Assembly: GCF_030811715.1 (NCBI RefSeq)
Contig: NZ_JAUSRH010000013.1
Span: 62,001-126,000, forward strand
DNA from: Sinomonas atrocyanea
GTDB taxonomy: Bacteria; Actinomycetota; Actinomycetes; Actinomycetales; Micrococcaceae
Reading direction: 5' to 3'
Length of the DNA stretch: 64,000 bases
A program made the position numbers and the translations under genes. The notes beneath the pieces were generated by a model that searched no databases, was not told the DNA's origin, and worked only from the letters and a program-made list of their open reading frames with translations. Shown piece after piece: positions 2,976-48,880 of this stretch. Position 1 is the first letter of the stretch. Each line of letters opens with the position of its first letter.

Positions 2976-4009
<1,034 letters not shown>

Positions 4010-43418: not shown

Positions 43419-44099
43419 ATGATGGCGACCATGATGGGTGCGGATGAGAGCCAGGTCTCCGGGGGTTCTGTGCGGAGGTCCGCCCGCGAGCGGATCCTTG
43501 AGACCGCCTACGGGCTGTTCGCCCGGTGCGGCGTCCGTGCCGTGGGCATCGACGAGATCATCGCCCACTCCGGAGTCGCCAAGGCGACGTTCTACCGGCA
43601 CTTCCCCTCGAAGGACGCCCTCGTCCTCGCGTACATGGACCGCTGGTACCAGGTCCGTCACGACGCGATCGAGGAGGCGATCTCCCATGCCCATGCGCCC
43701 GAGGATGCCCTCCTGGCGGCCTTCACGGTGCTGGACGACTGGTTCAGCCGCGGGGCGGCCGAGGTCAACACGTTCCTCCATGTGGTGATCGAATTCGGGC
43801 CCGGCCACCTCCTCGGGCAGGCAGCCATGGCCCATCTCGCGAACATCCGGGGGCGCCTCGCCGCCCTCGCCGAGGGTGCCGGCCTCAGCGACCCCACGGG
43901 CTTCGCCTGGTCCTTCCACATCCTCACCAAGGGCGCCATGGTCGCCTCCATCGAAGGCGACCAGCGCGCGGCGCTCCGGGCCCGTGCCCTTGCGCGGGCG
44001 CTCATCGACCTGCACCGCCCCGACACGCCCGGACGTCCGCAGTCGGAGCAGGAGGAAGACGACGAGGTGGAGGTCCTGCGGAAGCACGGCCACTCCTGA
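43419..44099 (+). CDS. TetR-family transcriptional regulator
   Basis: A 226-residue regulator with N-terminal HTH (SARERILETAYGLFARCGVRAVGIDEIIAHSGVAKATFYRHF-type residues 22-63). The larger C-terminal ligand-binding helical domain has FSRGAAEVNTFLHVVIEFGPG. Two adjacent ATG codons (43419 and 43422) follow AGAGGG; either may be used. The twin palindromes upstream predict control of itself and of the divergent sigma-factor gene. Confidence 0.85.
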   Translation: MMATMMGADESQVSGGSVRRSARERILETAYGLFARCGVRAVGIDEIIAHSGVAKATFYRHFPSKDALVLAYMDRWYQVRHDAIEEAISHAHAPEDALLAAFTVLDDWFSRGAAEVNTFLHVVIEFGPGHLLGQAAMAHLANIRGRLAALAEGAGLSDPTGFAWSFHILTKGAMVASIEGDQRAALRARALARALIDLHRPDTPGRPQSEQEEDDEVEVLRKHGHS

Positions 44100-44159
44100 T
44101 CCCTCCCTCTCCAGAGCCCCGTCCCAAGCTTCGGGATGTATCATCGCCGCGCAAGGTGC

Positions 44160-44321
44160 CGTTCGTTAGCTGAGGCTCCTTCGCGGACACAAGCCAGCGA
44201 CCCCCAACGTCGAGAGACGCCACAGGTCAGGACAGGCTGCCCCGGGCTAAGGGGCAACCCCGATTGGCTCCCCGGGTCTTCCCCGGGGTCACGACGCGAA
44301 GTGCCAAAGGTCTTACGAGGA
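44160..44321 (+). ncRNA. M-box (ykoK) Mg2+ riboswitch
   Basis: Conserved M-box blocks appear in order: GUUAGCUGAGGCUCCU (44165-44180), AACGUCGAGAGACGCC (44207-44222), GGUCAGGACAGG, GGGCUAAGGGGCAACCCC, GAAGUGCCAAAGG and UUACGAGG. The closing helix P1 can form between 44162-44169 and 44312-44319. It lies in the leader of the NRAMP-like gene, so Mg2+ availability probably controls that gene. The mechanism is described below with the leader ORF. Confidence 0.92.
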
Positions 44322-44334
44322 AGGGCCCGGCCCT

Positions 44335-44400
44335 ATGGCCGGCAGCCTGAAGGCACGCAGACTGCGTCCGGAGGAGGTGGCTGACCGTGTCCAGCGGTGA
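44335..44400 (+). CDS. possible leader peptide downstream of M-box
   Basis: A 21-codon ORF (MAGSLKARRLRPEEVADRVQR) begins 9 bases after GAGGAAGGG (44317-44325). That Shine-Dalgarno partly overlaps the 3' strand of M-box helix P1, and the ATG lies in a perfect 6-bp hairpin (44327-44332 with 44337-44342). A second overlapping mini-ORF could start at GTG 44387 after GGAGGAGG and end at 44428. Too short for codon statistics; translation is unproven. Confidence 0.4.
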   Translation: MAGSLKARRLRPEEVADRVQR

Positions 44401-44423
44401 CAGTAGTCCCTCCCCGCATATCT

Positions 44424-44440
44424 GCTGAGCCGCGCTCAGC
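44424..44440 (+). terminator. hairpin after leader ORFs, possible expression platform
   Basis: GCTGAGC-CGC-GCTCAGC, a perfect 7-bp stem followed by a C-rich tract, between the leader ORFs and the transporter gene. It might act as an attenuator or Rho-related signal of the riboswitch; it lacks a T tract. Confidence 0.4.
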
Positions 44441-44560
44441 CCCCTCCGCCAACGCCGCGCGCCCACGCCGTGACCACGCTCATCCCAGCCCGGTTCCGGC
44501 CCATGCGGGCGCGCCCGCTTCACGATCCCCGGCCACCGCCGGGAGGAAGCAGGTCCTGCC

Positions 44561-46252
44561 ATGCCCAAGACCCCCATGCCCACCGCCCCGACACCCGGAG
44601 TCCCCACTCCCGGGGTCACCACGCCCAAGGATTCGGCGGTCCTCGACTCCGCCCACGTCGGCGACATCCAGGGCGCCTTCGGCACCATCCGCCTGGGCGA
44701 CTCCTCGTCCCAGTCGAGCTGGAAGCGGCGCCTGAAGACGCTCCTGGCCATCGTCGGCCCGGGCCTGATCGTGATGGTCGGCGACAACGACGCCGGCGCG
44801 TTCGGCACCTACACCCAGGCCGGCCAGAACTACGGCACGTCCCTGCTGTGGACGCTCCTCCTGCTCGTCCCCGTCCTCTACGTGAATCAGGAGATGGTCC
44901 TGCGCCTTGGCGTGGTCACGGGCGTAGGGCACGCGCGGCTCATCCTCGAGCGGTTCGGGAAGTTCTGGGGCGCGTTCAGCGCGATCGACCTGTTCATCCT
45001 CAACGCCCTCACGATCGTCACCGAGTTCATCGGCATCTCGATCGGCCTTGACTACCTCGGCGTGCCCAAGATCCCGGGCGTGCTGATCTCGGCGCTGTTC
45101 GTGATCGGTGCGGCCAGCACGGGCTCGTTCCAGCGCTTCGAGCGGGTCTGCATGGCCCTCGTCGCCGGCTCGCTCCTGCTGGTCCCCGTGTTCTTCATGG
45201 CCGCCCCGGACTACGGGCAGATGGCCCACGACTTCGTGGTGCCCGGCATCCCGGCAGGCTCCGACATTGCCGACGTCACGCTGCTCATCATCGCCATCGT
45301 CGGCACCACCATCGCCCCGTGGCAGCTGTTCTTCCAGCAGTCCTACGTGATCGACAAGCGCATCACCCCGCGCTACATGAAGTACGAGCGGGTGGACCTC
45401 TGGCTCGGGATCGTGATCGTGGTGCTCGGCGCCGCGGCGATCGTCGGCTTCACCGCCGCGGCGTTCGCGCACCGGCCCGAGTTCGGCCACTTCACCGACG
45501 CCGGCGGCGTGGCCGAGGGCCTCGGCAAGCACGTGGGCCGGCTCGCCGGGATCCTGTTCGCCCTCGCCCTCATCGATGCCTCCATCATCGGCGCCGCAGC
45601 CGTGGGCCTCTCCACCTCCTATGCGCTCGGCGACGTCCTCGGCCTCAAGCACTCCCTGCACCGCAAGGTCAGCGACGCCAAGGGCTTCTACGCCGCCTTT
45701 GCCGGCATCATCGCCCTCTCCGCGGTCATCGTCATCATCCCCGGCAGCCCGCTCGGCCTCCTCACGGTCGGTGTTCAGGTCCTGGCCGGGGTGCTGCTGC
45801 CCTCGGCCACCGTATTCCTGCTCCTGCTCTGCAACGACAAGGAGGTCATGGGGCCGTGGGTCAACGGCCGCGGGATGAACATCTTCACCTCCGCCGTCAT
45901 CGCCGTCCTCGTGATCCTCTCCGTGGTCCTCACGGCCGCCGTCCTGTTCCCGGACATCAGCGGGACCGCGATCCTGCAGATCCTCGGCGGCGGGGCGCTC
46001 GTTGCCCTGCTCGCGGCGACAGGGCTCGCCGTCGTGCGCCTCCGCGCTGCGGCGAGCGCGAAGGCGGTCCGGGCCGAGCCCGCGGACCGCTCCCAGCGGT
46101 CCACCTGGCGGATGCCGCCGCTTGCGCTGCTGCAGCGGCCCCAGCTCTCCATGGCCCGGCGGGCCGGGCTGAGCGTGCTGCGCCTGTACCTGCTCGTGGC
46201 GATGGTCCTCGTGATCGTCCGCGTGGTCCAGCTGGCCCTCGCCGGCGCCTGA
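44561..46252 (+). CDS. NRAMP-related (probable Mg2+) transporter
   Basis: A 563-residue membrane protein of the SLC11/NRAMP superfamily with about 11 helices. In helix 1 the canonical DPGN is replaced by DNDAG (residues 75-79), and in helix 6 the metal-selecting Met-Pro-His is replaced by IAPWQ (251-255), so the Met that favours transition metals is absent. Those changes match the NRMT subgroup, which transports Mg2+ and does not exclude the hydrated ion. An upstream M-box supports this. The C-terminal region is cytoplasmic and basic. A soluble MgtE-N/CBS gene follows after 81 bases. Confidence 0.88.
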   Translation: MPKTPMPTAPTPGVPTPGVTTPKDSAVLDSAHVGDIQGAFGTIRLGDSSSQSSWKRRLKTLLAIVGPGLIVMVGDNDAGAFGTYTQAGQNYGTSLLWTLLLLVPVLYVNQEMVLRLGVVTGVGHARLILERFGKFWGAFSAIDLFILNALTIVTEFIGISIGLDYLGVPKIPGVLISALFVIGAASTGSFQRFERVCMALVAGSLLLVPVFFMAAPDYGQMAHDFVVPGIPAGSDIADVTLLIIAIVGTTIAPWQLFFQQSYVIDKRITPRYMKYERVDLWLGIVIVVLGAAAIVGFTAAAFAHRPEFGHFTDAGGVAEGLGKHVGRLAGILFALALIDASIIGAAAVGLSTSYALGDVLGLKHSLHRKVSDAKGFYAAFAGIIALSAVIVIIPGSPLGLLTVGVQVLAGVLLPSATVFLLLLCNDKEVMGPWVNGRGMNIFTSAVIAVLVILSVVLTAAVLFPDISGTAILQILGGGALVALLAATGLAVVRLRAAASAKAVRAEPADRSQRSTWRMPPLALLQRPQLSMARRAGLSVLRLYLLVAMVLVIVRVVQLALAGA

Positions 46253-46333
46253 CCCGTCCCCTCTCCCCACCGACCGGCGGGTGACGTACAGTCGCCCCGA
46301 GACGCCGATGCCCCGCGCACCGAAAGGCCCCCG

Positions 46334-47599
46334 ATGACCACCGCCGCCCCGGAAGCCTCCCTCTCGCTCTCCACGCTCCTGCGCCAGCCGGTCACCGACT
46401 CCGACGGGCACCGCATGGGCGTGCTCGCCGACCTCATCGTCCGGCTCGGCCGCGGCGACTACCCGCTCGTGACCGGGCTCGTCGTCGCCGTCGGCGGCAC
46501 GCGGGCGTTCGTCACGGCGTCCGACCTCGCTGCCCTCGAGCCCGGCCGCGTCCAGCTCGCCGTGAGCACCGTGGACCTTCGCGAGTTCCGCCGGCGGGAG
46601 GGCGAGGTGCTCCTCTCGGAGGACGTCCTGGGCCACCGGCTCATCGACGTCACGCGCGCCGCGTTCGTCAAGGCGTACGACATCCAGCTCACCCCCGTCC
46701 TGGACGGATGGGCGGCGACCGGCCTCGACGTGCACCGGCGCCGCTGGCTGAGCCTCGGCCCGCGCCACGCCGCCCACGCCCCGCGCGACTGGAAGGACTT
46801 CGAGCCGCTCATCGGCCACGCCGACTCCGCCCACGTGCGCCGCGCCGCCGGCCGCATCCCGGACCTGAAGCCTGCCCAGATCGCGGACATCATCGAGGAG
46901 GCCACCGAGCGCGAGCAGCACGAGCTGCTCGCCCAGGTGCACGAGGACCCCGAGCTCGAGGCGGACGTCTTCGAGGAGCTCGACGAGGACCGCCAGTCGG
47001 AGCTCTTCCGGGACCGCACCGACGCGGAGGTGGCGGAGGTGCTCGGGCGGATGCAGGCCGACGACGCCGCTGATGCCGTCATGGACCTGCCCCAGGAGCG
47101 GCGAGCCCCGGTCCTCGGGCTCCTGCCCGAGCCCCACCGCGGCGTGGTGCACCGGCTGCTCGGCTACCACGGGCTCACCGCCGGCGGCCTCATGGGCACC
47201 GAGTTCCTCGCCCTGCCCGCCACCGCGACCGTGGCGGACGCGCTCGCGGCGGTCCGCGGGGCGAGCCTCCTCCAGCCCCAGGCCCTGGCCGTCATCTACA
47301 CCCTCGCCCCGGACGGCACACTCGAGGGCGCCCTCACCCTCGTCCACGCCGTCCAGGCCGACCCCGGCCGCCTGCTGTCCGAGGTCGCCGACCGGGACGT
47401 GGTCCGTGCCGCCCCGGACGACGACGTCATCGACGTCACCACCCGCATGGCCGACTTCAACCTCCTGGCCATGCCGGTGCTGGCCGAGGACCGGCGCATC
47501 CTCGGCGTCATCACGGTCGACGACGCGCTCGAGGCCGCGATCCCCGAGGACTGGTCCCGGCGCGAGCCCCACCACCGCGAGACCGGGTCGGAAGGCTGA
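46334..47599 (+). CDS. soluble MgtE-N/CBS protein without membrane domain
   Basis: A 421-residue soluble protein. An N-terminal PRC-barrel-like part is at about 10-85. An MgtE_N superhelix (about 165-270) has RIPDLKPAQIADIIEEATEREQHELL and the DDAADAVMDLPQERR motif. A CBS pair (about 285-405) has TVADALAAVRGA and DRRILGVITVDDALEA. The five-helix membrane pore of true MgtE is absent, so it resembles the Mg2+-sensing plug alone. It is co-directional with the NRAMP-like gene. Confidence 0.87.
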   Translation: MTTAAPEASLSLSTLLRQPVTDSDGHRMGVLADLIVRLGRGDYPLVTGLVVAVGGTRAFVTASDLAALEPGRVQLAVSTVDLREFRRREGEVLLSEDVLGHRLIDVTRAAFVKAYDIQLTPVLDGWAATGLDVHRRRWLSLGPRHAAHAPRDWKDFEPLIGHADSAHVRRAAGRIPDLKPAQIADIIEEATEREQHELLAQVHEDPELEADVFEELDEDRQSELFRDRTDAEVAEVLGRMQADDAADAVMDLPQERRAPVLGLLPEPHRGVVHRLLGYHGLTAGGLMGTEFLALPATATVADALAAVRGASLLQPQALAVIYTLAPDGTLEGALTLVHAVQADPGRLLSEVADRDVVRAAPDDDVIDVTTRMADFNLLAMPVLAEDRRILGVITVDDALEAAIPEDWSRREPHHRETGSEG

Positions 47600-47623
47600 C
47601 GCGCACTGGTTCCTTGCTGGGCG

Positions 47624-47650
47624 GTCCGGCCGGGCCCGGCCCGGGCGGAC
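47624..47650. terminator. hairpin between convergent genes
   Basis: A 12-bp stem with one mismatch and a CCG loop, 25 bases after the MgtE-like stop and just before the convergent MFS stop. It could serve both directions. Confidence 0.65.
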
Positions 47651-47653
47651 AGC

Positions 47654-48880
47654 CTAGGAGTGCCGGAGGCGGCGCAGCACGAGGGCGAGGCCCACAAAGG
47701 CCAGGGCGTTGGCGGCCAGGATCACTGTGACGGCGGCGGCGGGGCTGGCCACGTAGGCGGCGCCGAGGATGCCGCCGGCGGCGAGGAGGCCGACGCCGCG
47801 GACGAGGGCCAGCCAGCCGAACGCCACCGCCCGCGAATGGGAGGGAACGAGCTCAGTGACCACGGCCTTGACCGTAGAGTCCAGCACGCCGTTGACGATT
47901 CCCCACACCGCGGCGCCTGCCCAGACGAGCGCCACGCTGCCGCCGAACGAGATCGCGGCGACCGCGGCCGCGGCAGGGACGGCGAGGAGCACGAGGGGGC
48001 CGCGGCGGTCGTAGAGCCGCCCGACCACGAACCCGCTGAGCCCGTCCACGGCCATCGCCACGGCGAAGACGACCGGGACGAGGGCGTCGCCGAGGAGCCC
48101 GGTGGTCTGGGCATGGAAGGCGATGAGCGGGAACGGCGCCACGCCGCAGGAGAGGACCGCCACCGCCGCCGTGTACTGCCAGAACCGCGCCGGCAGGTGC
48201 GCCCGCGCCATGCCCTTCGCATCCGGGCCGCGGGCAGGGGCGGCAGCACCGGCGTCGTGCTCGTAGACCGCCGGGTCCGGCACCCGGGTGCGCAGCCATG
48301 CCAGCACGCCCAGGACGAGCACGCCGGGGACGGCGAGGACGCCGAAGGCGAGCCGGTAGTCGCCCTCGCTCCAGGCCAGGACGGCGGCCAGGAGCAGGGG
48401 CCCGAGCATGGCGCCCGTCTGGTCGAGCGCCTGGTGGATGCCGAACGCGCTGCCGCGGCCGGTCCTGGTCGAGGCGTGGGAGAGGAGGGTGTCCTTGGCC
48501 GGGGAGCGAACGGCCTTGCCGAGCCGCTCGGTGCCGTAGAGCAGCAGCGCCGGGGCGATCAGGCCGGTGGCCCCGATGAGGGGAACGCTCAGGACGGTGA
48601 GGGCGTAGCCGGTGATGGTCCAGGCCCAGTAGTGCTGGGTGCGGCGCACCGCGAGGCCGGAGAGGACGCGCAGGCCGTAGCCGATGAACTCCCCCGCCCC
48701 CGCGACGAGGCCCACCACCGTGGCGCTCGCGCCGAGCGTGCCGAGGTAGGGGCCGATGATGCTGCGGGCGCCCTCGTACACCATGTCCGCCAGCAGGCTG
48801 ACGATGCCGAAGGCGAGGATGAAGTGCCACGGGCGGAGCAGGGGCGCGCGCTCCTGCGCGGCGGGGCTGCCGTTCGCCAT
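47654..48880 (-). CDS. MFS transporter
   Basis: A 408-residue 12-helix protein. It contains MVYEGARSIIGPYLGTLGAS near residue 32, a GRLYDRRGP loop, and SPAKDTLLSHASTRTGRGSAFG near 120, a pattern seen in hypothetical actinobacterial MFS proteins. ATG 48880 follows AAGGAGATCCCCC; an upstream in-frame ATG at 49096 would lie in the divergent promoter and is rejected. Substrate unknown. It is divergent from the lipoprotein/LGFP operon. Confidence 0.85.
   Translation of the reverse strand: MANGSPAAQERAPLLRPWHFILAFGIVSLLADMVYEGARSIIGPYLGTLGASATVVGLVAGAGEFIGYGLRVLSGLAVRRTQHYWAWTITGYALTVLSVPLIGATGLIAPALLLYGTERLGKAVRSPAKDTLLSHASTRTGRGSAFGIHQALDQTGAMLGPLLLAAVLAWSEGDYRLAFGVLAVPGVLVLGVLAWLRTRVPDPAVYEHDAGAAAPARGPDAKGMARAHLPARFWQYTAAVAVLSCGVAPFPLIAFHAQTTGLLGDALVPVVFAVAMAVDGLSGFVVGRLYDRRGPLVLLAVPAAAAVAAISFGGSVALVWAGAAVWGIVNGVLDSTVKAVVTELVPSHSRAVAFGWLALVRGVGLLAAGGILGAAYVASPAAAVTVILAANALAFVGLALVLRRLRHS

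Follow-up and report, generated by a model that had tools for sequence, protein, structure and literature searches.

Positions 44155–47599 of a 64,000-nucleotide stretch of Sinomonas atrocyanea DNA (contig NZ_JAUSRH010000013.1, positions 62,001 to 126,000; hereafter the window) carry an M-box Mg2+ riboswitch aptamer, a short upstream open reading frame (uORF), a gene for an NRAMP-related importer and a gene for a pore-less MgtE-like protein, hereafter the fragment. The linkage between the last two is one-sided, and no description of such a linkage, with MgtC as the other neighbour of the importer, was found within the literature searched. We read the locus as an operon with which an actinobacterium of the Sinomonas type answers Mg2+ starvation, and lean modestly toward the whole chain that this reading implies, i.e., a leader switch, Mg2+ import and a fragment that gates the importer in trans.

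Among 149 genomes of the same family (Micrococcaceae), an importer orthologue was found in 10 (E ≤ 1e-60), and in all 10 a close fragment (46–100% identity) lay directly downstream; in genome G097 the importer gene is divided between two contigs. A fragment homologue of some kind was present in 131 of the 149 genomes, and outside those 10 the search gave only distant homologues (28–35%). Distant homologues (approximately 28–37% identity) were considered as the partner and were not counted.

We also scanned related proteins, taking the best 80 of 534 named relatives, a sample whose counts favour close relatives. An adjacent fragment was found at only 17 of these 80 loci (16 downstream and one, L110, upstream) and universal pairing of importer and fragment was therefore rejected. 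MgtC lay at most 139 nt downstream of the importer at 11 loci; 52 had neither MgtC nor fragment by our test, in part owing to contig ends. The importers adjoined by MgtC (L084, L086, L099, L111, L112, L116, L118, L122, L131, L137, and L139) include proteobacterial loci without an M-box, and MgtC at L099 was confirmed by Pfam. Searches of 34 genomes with a fragment-less importer locus detected a close fragment (49–77% identity) in seven, distant homologues only in 12, and none in 15; in all seven, the close fragment adjoins a second copy of the importer. Whole-genome searches of the family and of these 34 genomes revealed no close fragment standing alone. Since all close fragments adjoin an importer (10/10 and 7/7), while many importers have no adjacent fragment, the importer seems to be required for the fragment, but not the fragment for the importer.

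Gene order differs between two importer clades. In the window clade the importer gene comes first, except at L110. In a sister clade, made up of second importer copies in five genomes (L100, L120, L139, L149, and L150; 55–59% identity to the window importer), a fragment gene of its own comes first and overlaps the importer gene by four bases in 5/5 cases. The pair is also present in Bradyrhizobium BTAi1 (L148), where no M-box was found. On a quick tree of 98 rows, built with no mixture model, containing two long branches and leaving out L066 (same genome as L010), the fragment state changes eight times and the M-box state nine times; we take from it no more than that both states have changed repeatedly. 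Fusion of the two genes was considered and rejected: the long frames seen in L014 and L011 run across the importer gene in a different reading frame.

The importer gene (44561–46252, forward strand) encodes a protein of 563 aa that matches Pfam Nramp with 285 bits. Its best solved relative is EleNRMT from Eggerthella lenta (PDB 7qia; 188.6 bits, E 1.9e-54), followed by a clade-B NRAMP with 91 bits, and the MntH entries reach at most 58.2 bits. EleNRMT transports Mg2+ without H+ coupling and also carries Mn2+; the published signature of the NRMT binding site is DxxG-TxxA/T, and loss of the helix-1 Asn and the helix-6 Met is held to widen the site for hydrated Mg2+ (PMC8806188). One further paper sets NRMT apart from another NRAMP outgroup (PMC9606685). 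An earlier note on this DNA, made from the sequence alone, had read a Mg2+-type helix-1 motif DNDAG and a helix-6 Met replaced by Ala. The second reading stands, helix 6 being GTTIAPW with a TxxA site at T249 and A252. The helix-1 site is also real, but it was framed two residues early: helix 1 reads GDNDAGAF, and alignment to EleNRMT places the site at D77-A-G-A80, i.e., DxxA, where EleNRMT has DAGG and the published signature DxxG. Trp254 and Gln259 occupy two helix-6b His positions at which EleNRMT has Trp and Asn. EleNRMT resembles the importer in the TxxA of helix 6, the Trp that takes the place of the first helix-6b His, the helix-3 Glu and the helix-10 Gln (PMC8806188); it differs in having DxxG, and the N-terminal LDxAHxGDIxGAxGTI motif of the window importer falls outside the part aligned to it.

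The DxxA site and the helix-6 motif GTT[IV]APW were each present in 89/89 aligned members (nine family loci and the 80 named loci, with one genome in both sets), and DNDAGG, the DxxG form of EleNRMT itself, together with TxxA in 5/5 members of the sister clade. Within PF01566 the importer is closer to NRMT than to MntH and shares TxxA with the published group, but not DxxG; because it has DxxA while the sister clade keeps DxxG, we call it an NRMT-like variant rather than a textbook member. We read the window clade as NRMTs in which the helix-1 Gly probably became Ala, a small change that would fit the widened-site view, and found no such putative DxxA clade in print within the literature searched. 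By analogy with EleNRMT, Mg2+ is the likely substrate and would be carried without proton coupling. The two sister clades, one with DxxG and the other with DxxA, offer a natural test of the Mg2+ site. Two further NRAMP-family proteins, both of which match Pfam Nramp, have odd sites when inspected by eye: L002, from the same genome as the window, with DAGS and SxxI, and L018 with DGPS and AxxT.

The fragment gene (46334–47599) lies on the same strand, 81 nt behind the importer gene, and the two are presumably co-transcribed. Its product of 421 aa contains MgtE_N (residues 178–279, 71.5 bits) and one CBS domain (residues 349–401, 41 bits) called by Pfam, which did not call the first CBS; no Pfam match to the MgtE pore domain was found, in agreement with the sensor parts without pore that had been described before. 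That description made no mention of the approximately 170 N-terminal residues, which are not part of MgtE; they are predicted to be beta-rich and are weakly PRC-barrel-like (Pfam E 0.074, below the cut-off). Among fragments this part is as conserved as CBS1 (53–57% mean identity to the window). Against NCBIfam mgtE the fragment scores 102.3 bits, below the cut-off of 232.75, and covers positions 24–250 of the 450 in the profile. The best solved relatives by sequence are MgtE cytosolic domains, and these also ranked first when the predicted model (mean pLDDT 78.9) was searched with Foldseek, with E down to 3.7e-17 and TM-scores of approximately 0.3 of the query and 0.47–0.53 of the cytosolic-domain targets.

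We compared 30 fragments, without L007 and leaving out fragments below 300 bits, at MgtE residues that we take to bind Mg2+ (Thermus numbering, derived from the alignment of the fragment with MgtE structures). The positions matching 91, 92, and 95 are Asp in 30/30 fragments and those matching 246 and 247 in 29/30, one fragment being cut short; position 214 is acidic in 29/30 and position 250 in 26/30. The MgtE cytosolic domain (PDB 2yvy, 2oux, 8gpv) is alike in its N domain and CBS and in the acidic positions 91/92/95 and 246/247, and the window fragment differs from it in the extra N-terminal part and the absence of the pore. The genome also encodes a distant paralogue of the fragment (L008, C12:121164–122372), with 32% identity and only 16–36% in the N-terminal part; its neighbour is a divergent gene whose product has a YflT stress-protein domain.

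The M-box (ykoK) aptamer at 44155–44329 of the forward strand confirms the riboswitch that had been recognised before the transporter: it matches Rfam RF00380 over its full length (positions 1–169 of 169) and, at 108.8 bits (E 2.5e-23), scores far above the gathering score of 44; it is the only RF00380 match in the 4.23 Mb assembly. With the end of the fragment gene it places the limits originally given for the stretch, 44160–47599, correctly to within a few bases. M-boxes occur in 21/149 family genomes and lie upstream of the importer orthologue in 10/10 of those that carry it. Among the best 80 named loci, 24 have an M-box before the importer when counted as Rfam matches, and eight of these 24 also have an adjacent fragment; 23 are labelled actinobacterial and one (L083) is a metagenome bin labelled Proteobacteria. 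Where family M-boxes stand without an NRMT, the gene that follows codes for MgtC, full MgtE, a P-type cation ATPase, or an ABC permease. We infer that expression of the importer and fragment genes would be subject to Mg2+-dependent control by the M-box leader, as known M-boxes suggest. Five M-boxes of the same family (L049, L051, L054, L055, and L057) stand upstream of MgtC, and in Actinacidiphila oryziradicis (L100) three lie within 3 kb (784–957, 2491–2668, and 3504–3679), two of them sharing a strand and the third lying opposite.

Between aptamer and importer gene lies a uORF (44387–44428, forward strand) of 13 codons with a GTG start, MSSGDSSPSPHIC, which begins 57 nt past the aptamer and is preceded by a strong Shine-Dalgarno sequence, AGGAGGTG, 7 nt upstream. 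In 9/9 complete family leaders a uORF stands at this position and encodes a related peptide (e.g., MPSGDSHTSISSS, MTDGDNGCLQSASAQESARDA, MPDGHKPAPRPRSNP, and MSSGHQPCPAPDQSIR), and Sinomonas humi (L067) has the same peptide with a TTG start. Similar uORFs follow family M-boxes that precede genes for full MgtE (L058), an ABC permease (L060), or a P-type cation ATPase (L062 and L063 among others), as well as M-boxes at Microbacteriaceae, Streptomyces, and Amycolatopsis loci; four of five leaders from the group that we take for Mycobacterium carry one as well, beginning MSSSDSPGRSP. A uORF with a Shine-Dalgarno sequence follows the M-box at L009–L016, L060, L062–L065, L067–L071, L090, L094, L100, L118, and L130. 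No clear uORF was seen after the M-boxes before MgtC (L049, L051, L054, and L055) or in many M-box leaders from other classes of the phylum, and L030, of the mycobacterial-type group, shows no ATG/GTG uORF. The gene after the M-box and uORF at L060 matches Pfam BPD_transp_1, an ABC-transporter permease domain, and to our knowledge does not encode a known Mg2+ transporter.

A mechanical test required a uORF of 10–45 aa with an ATG or GTG start 50–175 nt past the aptamer tail and a Shine-Dalgarno match of at least 5. Of the 76 M-box leaders, 48 passed it, whereas 60 shuffles with our own approximate dinucleotide-keeping procedure gave 4.7 on average and 13 at most; the leaders are related to one another and we attach no probability to this difference. 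Near-identical leaders and L066, L019, and L017 were left out. The test scores L014, L016, L063, and L064 (weak Shine-Dalgarno sequence) and L067 (TTG start) as misses, although a similar uORF is visible in each; in L100 and L085 a further candidate of a different kind appears, and a few of the 48 hits (e.g., L036 and L046) look like chance.

Peptide and RNA offer competing explanations of this conservation. The first supposes that actinobacterial M-boxes share a short translated leader peptide (approximately M-S-S-[GS]-[DH]-x-P, with variants) before unrelated Mg2+ genes, including those for NRMT, P-type ATPase, MgtE, and ABC permease and mycobacterial loci, as the true output stage of one actinobacterial Mg2+ cassette; we hold this tentatively, at a little short of an even chance. 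The second, that the uORF is not read for its peptide and that the RNA is conserved, whether as Shine-Dalgarno sequence, as an anti-Shine-Dalgarno made of C-rich codons, or as a small hairpin with a chance frame, is a serious possibility that we nevertheless rather doubt. Among 17 Micrococcaceae-type uORFs, synonymous changes make up 181 of the 502 in-frame codon differences, compared to 70/409 and 30/392 in the other frames, and the same holds for three Streptomyces-type uORFs (11/25 compared to 5/24 and 4/24). The excess is absent from mycobacterial-type uORFs (13/60 in frame compared to 14/59 and 16/59), from those of Microbacteriaceae (2/23 compared to 8/22 and 3/21), and from the pair L118/L130 (1/5 compared to 2/6 and 2/6), as expected if RNA were conserved. 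A reading-frame test on 14 distinct Micrococcaceae-type uORFs gave z = 8.3 in frame and 0.1 in one other frame, but the +1 frame was also above the null (z = 3.6). By eye, a CCUCC within the window uORF can pair with its own Shine-Dalgarno sequence, a further point for the RNA. In favour of the peptide, Ser-Ser is written TCC-AGC in some uORFs and AGT-TCT in others, the start codon varies between ATG, GTG, and TTG (L067), and translation of the mycobacterial uORF2 was shown by lacZ fusions (PMC12810186).

That uORF2 (Rv1805A) belongs to a mycobacterial M-box with a translational platform and Rho-dependent termination, and its peptide has been called specific for mycobacteria (D'Halluin et al., 2026; PMC12810186). 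As described there, the mycobacterial leader resembles that of the window in a purine-rich stretch at the 3' end of the aptamer, a second Shine-Dalgarno sequence before a short uORF, and no intrinsic terminator seen, and the two peptides start in a similar way (MSSSDSP in presumed mycobacterial genomes, MSSGDSSP in the window). It differs in the distance of the uORF from the aptamer (approximately 92 nt compared to 57 nt) and in the downstream genes. These comparisons suggest that uORFs of this kind may not be restricted to mycobacteria, the peptides being too short to prove homology; no report of one outside mycobacteria was found in the open-access literature searched. An output stage of actinobacterial M-boxes becomes testable with a uORF that extends beyond mycobacteria and precedes several unrelated Mg2+ genes. 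In enterobacteria, the proline-rich leader MgtL reads translation at low Mg2+, and by analogy the uORF peptide may itself do so. As to the proline at position 7 of the mycobacterial uORF2 peptide, several relatives have it, the window has one at position 8, and L010, L013, and L070 have none at that place.

The spacer between uORF and importer gene (44429–44540, forward strand) is rich in C and poor in G, with 60 C and 29 G, a ratio of 2.07 compared to 1.25 in both coding regions. This signal is uneven, as the ratio ranges from 1.28 to 2.58 in 12 relatives. A simple scan, itself a weak test, detected no terminator-like site in 44000–47800 (0 compared to 0.4 in shuffles). Because the spacer is C-rich and no intrinsic terminator was seen, a Rho mechanism fits, and the spacer may serve as a rut-like region for Rho loading; by analogy with mycobacteria, the window leader would then comprise an OFF-switch and a Rho step.

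In the mechanism that we propose, a fall in cytosolic Mg2+ would cause the M-box to free the uORF Shine-Dalgarno sequence for ribosomes. Translation of the uORF would keep Rho from stopping transcription in the C-rich leader, such that the importer and fragment genes are transcribed, and the importer would bring Mg2+ in with no coupling to protons, its site being wider where the helix-1 Asn and the helix-6 Met have been lost. In Mg2+-replete cells, the fragment would become compact and hold the importer back in trans. What the sequence itself shows is the M-box, the domains, the order of the genes, the acidic positions kept in part, the tie between importer and fragment and the conservation of the uORF. 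Points in favour of the mechanism include EleNRMT as the best relative, the TxxA site, the replaced helix-6b His, MgtC as a neighbour in relatives and the genes behind other family M-boxes. The early steps draw on what is known of these families and on the mycobacterial analogue. We infer the last step, which the one-sided linkage makes more likely. The earlier note had called such a sensor, released from one Mg2+ channel and paired with a different transporter, a possible gating system of a new kind; its interpretation is partly supported, but the claim to novelty falls, as both the pairing and the feedback idea are already in Shin et al. (2014; PMC4072509). That study describes a homologue of the MgtE N-terminal cytoplasmic domain in the neighbourhood of most members of its NrmT group, with many such fragments under M-boxes together with NrmT, and speculates on cytoplasmic feedback. 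The window shares with these operons the M-box leader, an NRAMP-related Mg2+ importer, an adjacent gene for the MgtE cytoplasmic domain and the proposed feedback, and differs from them as described there in the helix-1 DxxA, the leader uORF, and MgtC as the other neighbour in relatives; moreover, the fragment gene precedes nrmT in A. capsulatum and follows the importer gene in the window (PMC4072509). No later test of the feedback idea was found within the literature searched on NRAMP with MgtE.

A number of results weigh against this mechanism. Co-occurrence of the pair, whose failure across relatives the earlier note would have taken as refutation, holds throughout the 10 family genomes with the importer, but 63 of the best 80 named relatives lack an adjacent fragment, a small number of these loci stopping shortly past the importer gene; because most are without it, the fragment is not needed for transport. 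In A. capsulatum, as reported, co-expression of the fragment gave no further rescue, and NrmT rescued a Mn2+ uptake mutant and was likely a Mn2+ transporter (PMC4072509). Further points lie in the fragment itself, where the window differs from MgtE: the position matching Thermus Asp226 is Asn in 29/29 fragments, and Glu is found at the position of Glu216 in only four, with mostly Val or Ile in the others. Of the MgtE ATP-site residues named in PMC5529423, Y170, R187, D188, N203, and F227 are replaced in every fragment that has a residue there, and only V207 is matched by Val or Ile. The predicted fragment model has a pTM of only 0.55, and the structure prediction for the importer (pLDDT 37.7) was discarded as unusable. 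Finally, a folding proxy for accessibility of the uORF Shine-Dalgarno sequence in 18 leaders, with the 5' arm of the aptamer free or blocked, gave no clear sign of the switch: most leaders differed little, L011 and L068 went in the opposite direction, and the window gave 0.27 compared to 0.36.

Some of these results invite other explanations. The fragment may not gate the importer at all but be tied to it in another role, as a Mg2+ buffer or chaperone at its exit, through placement by the PRC-like part, or by passing its readout to a different target. Chaperone activity is an alternative that Shin et al. themselves mention (PMC4072509), and the absence of further rescue upon co-expression, the N-terminal region foreign to MgtE, the loss of some acidic and most ATP-site residues, and a distant paralogue (L008) on another contig than the importer would all suit such a role. 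We nonetheless think it unlikely, if well short of negligible, given that several acidic positions are invariant and that the close fragments from whole-genome searches all adjoin an importer, and do so in either gene order and in both importer clades. It is a good deal less probable that Mn2+ or some other divalent metal is the main substrate of the importer and that the M-box only reports Mg2+ status. The Mn2+ rescue by A. capsulatum NrmT, which has an adjacent fragment (PMC4072509), the Mn2+ carried by EleNRMT besides Mg2+ (PMC8806188) and the missing DxxG of the window importer speak for this; yet A. capsulatum nrmT is reported to lack the M-box that Shin et al. regard as a mark of Mg2+ specificity (PMC4072509), the M-box is found at 10/10 family orthologues and 24 of the best 80 named relatives, and the other recurrent neighbour of the importer is MgtC. 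If gating in trans by the fragment is true, a sensor module that evolved in a channel works on a carrier of another fold, and the one-sided linkage offers natural paired and unpaired importers for comparison.

The locus is flanked upstream by a TetR-family gene and downstream, on the opposite strand, by a gene of the major facilitator family.

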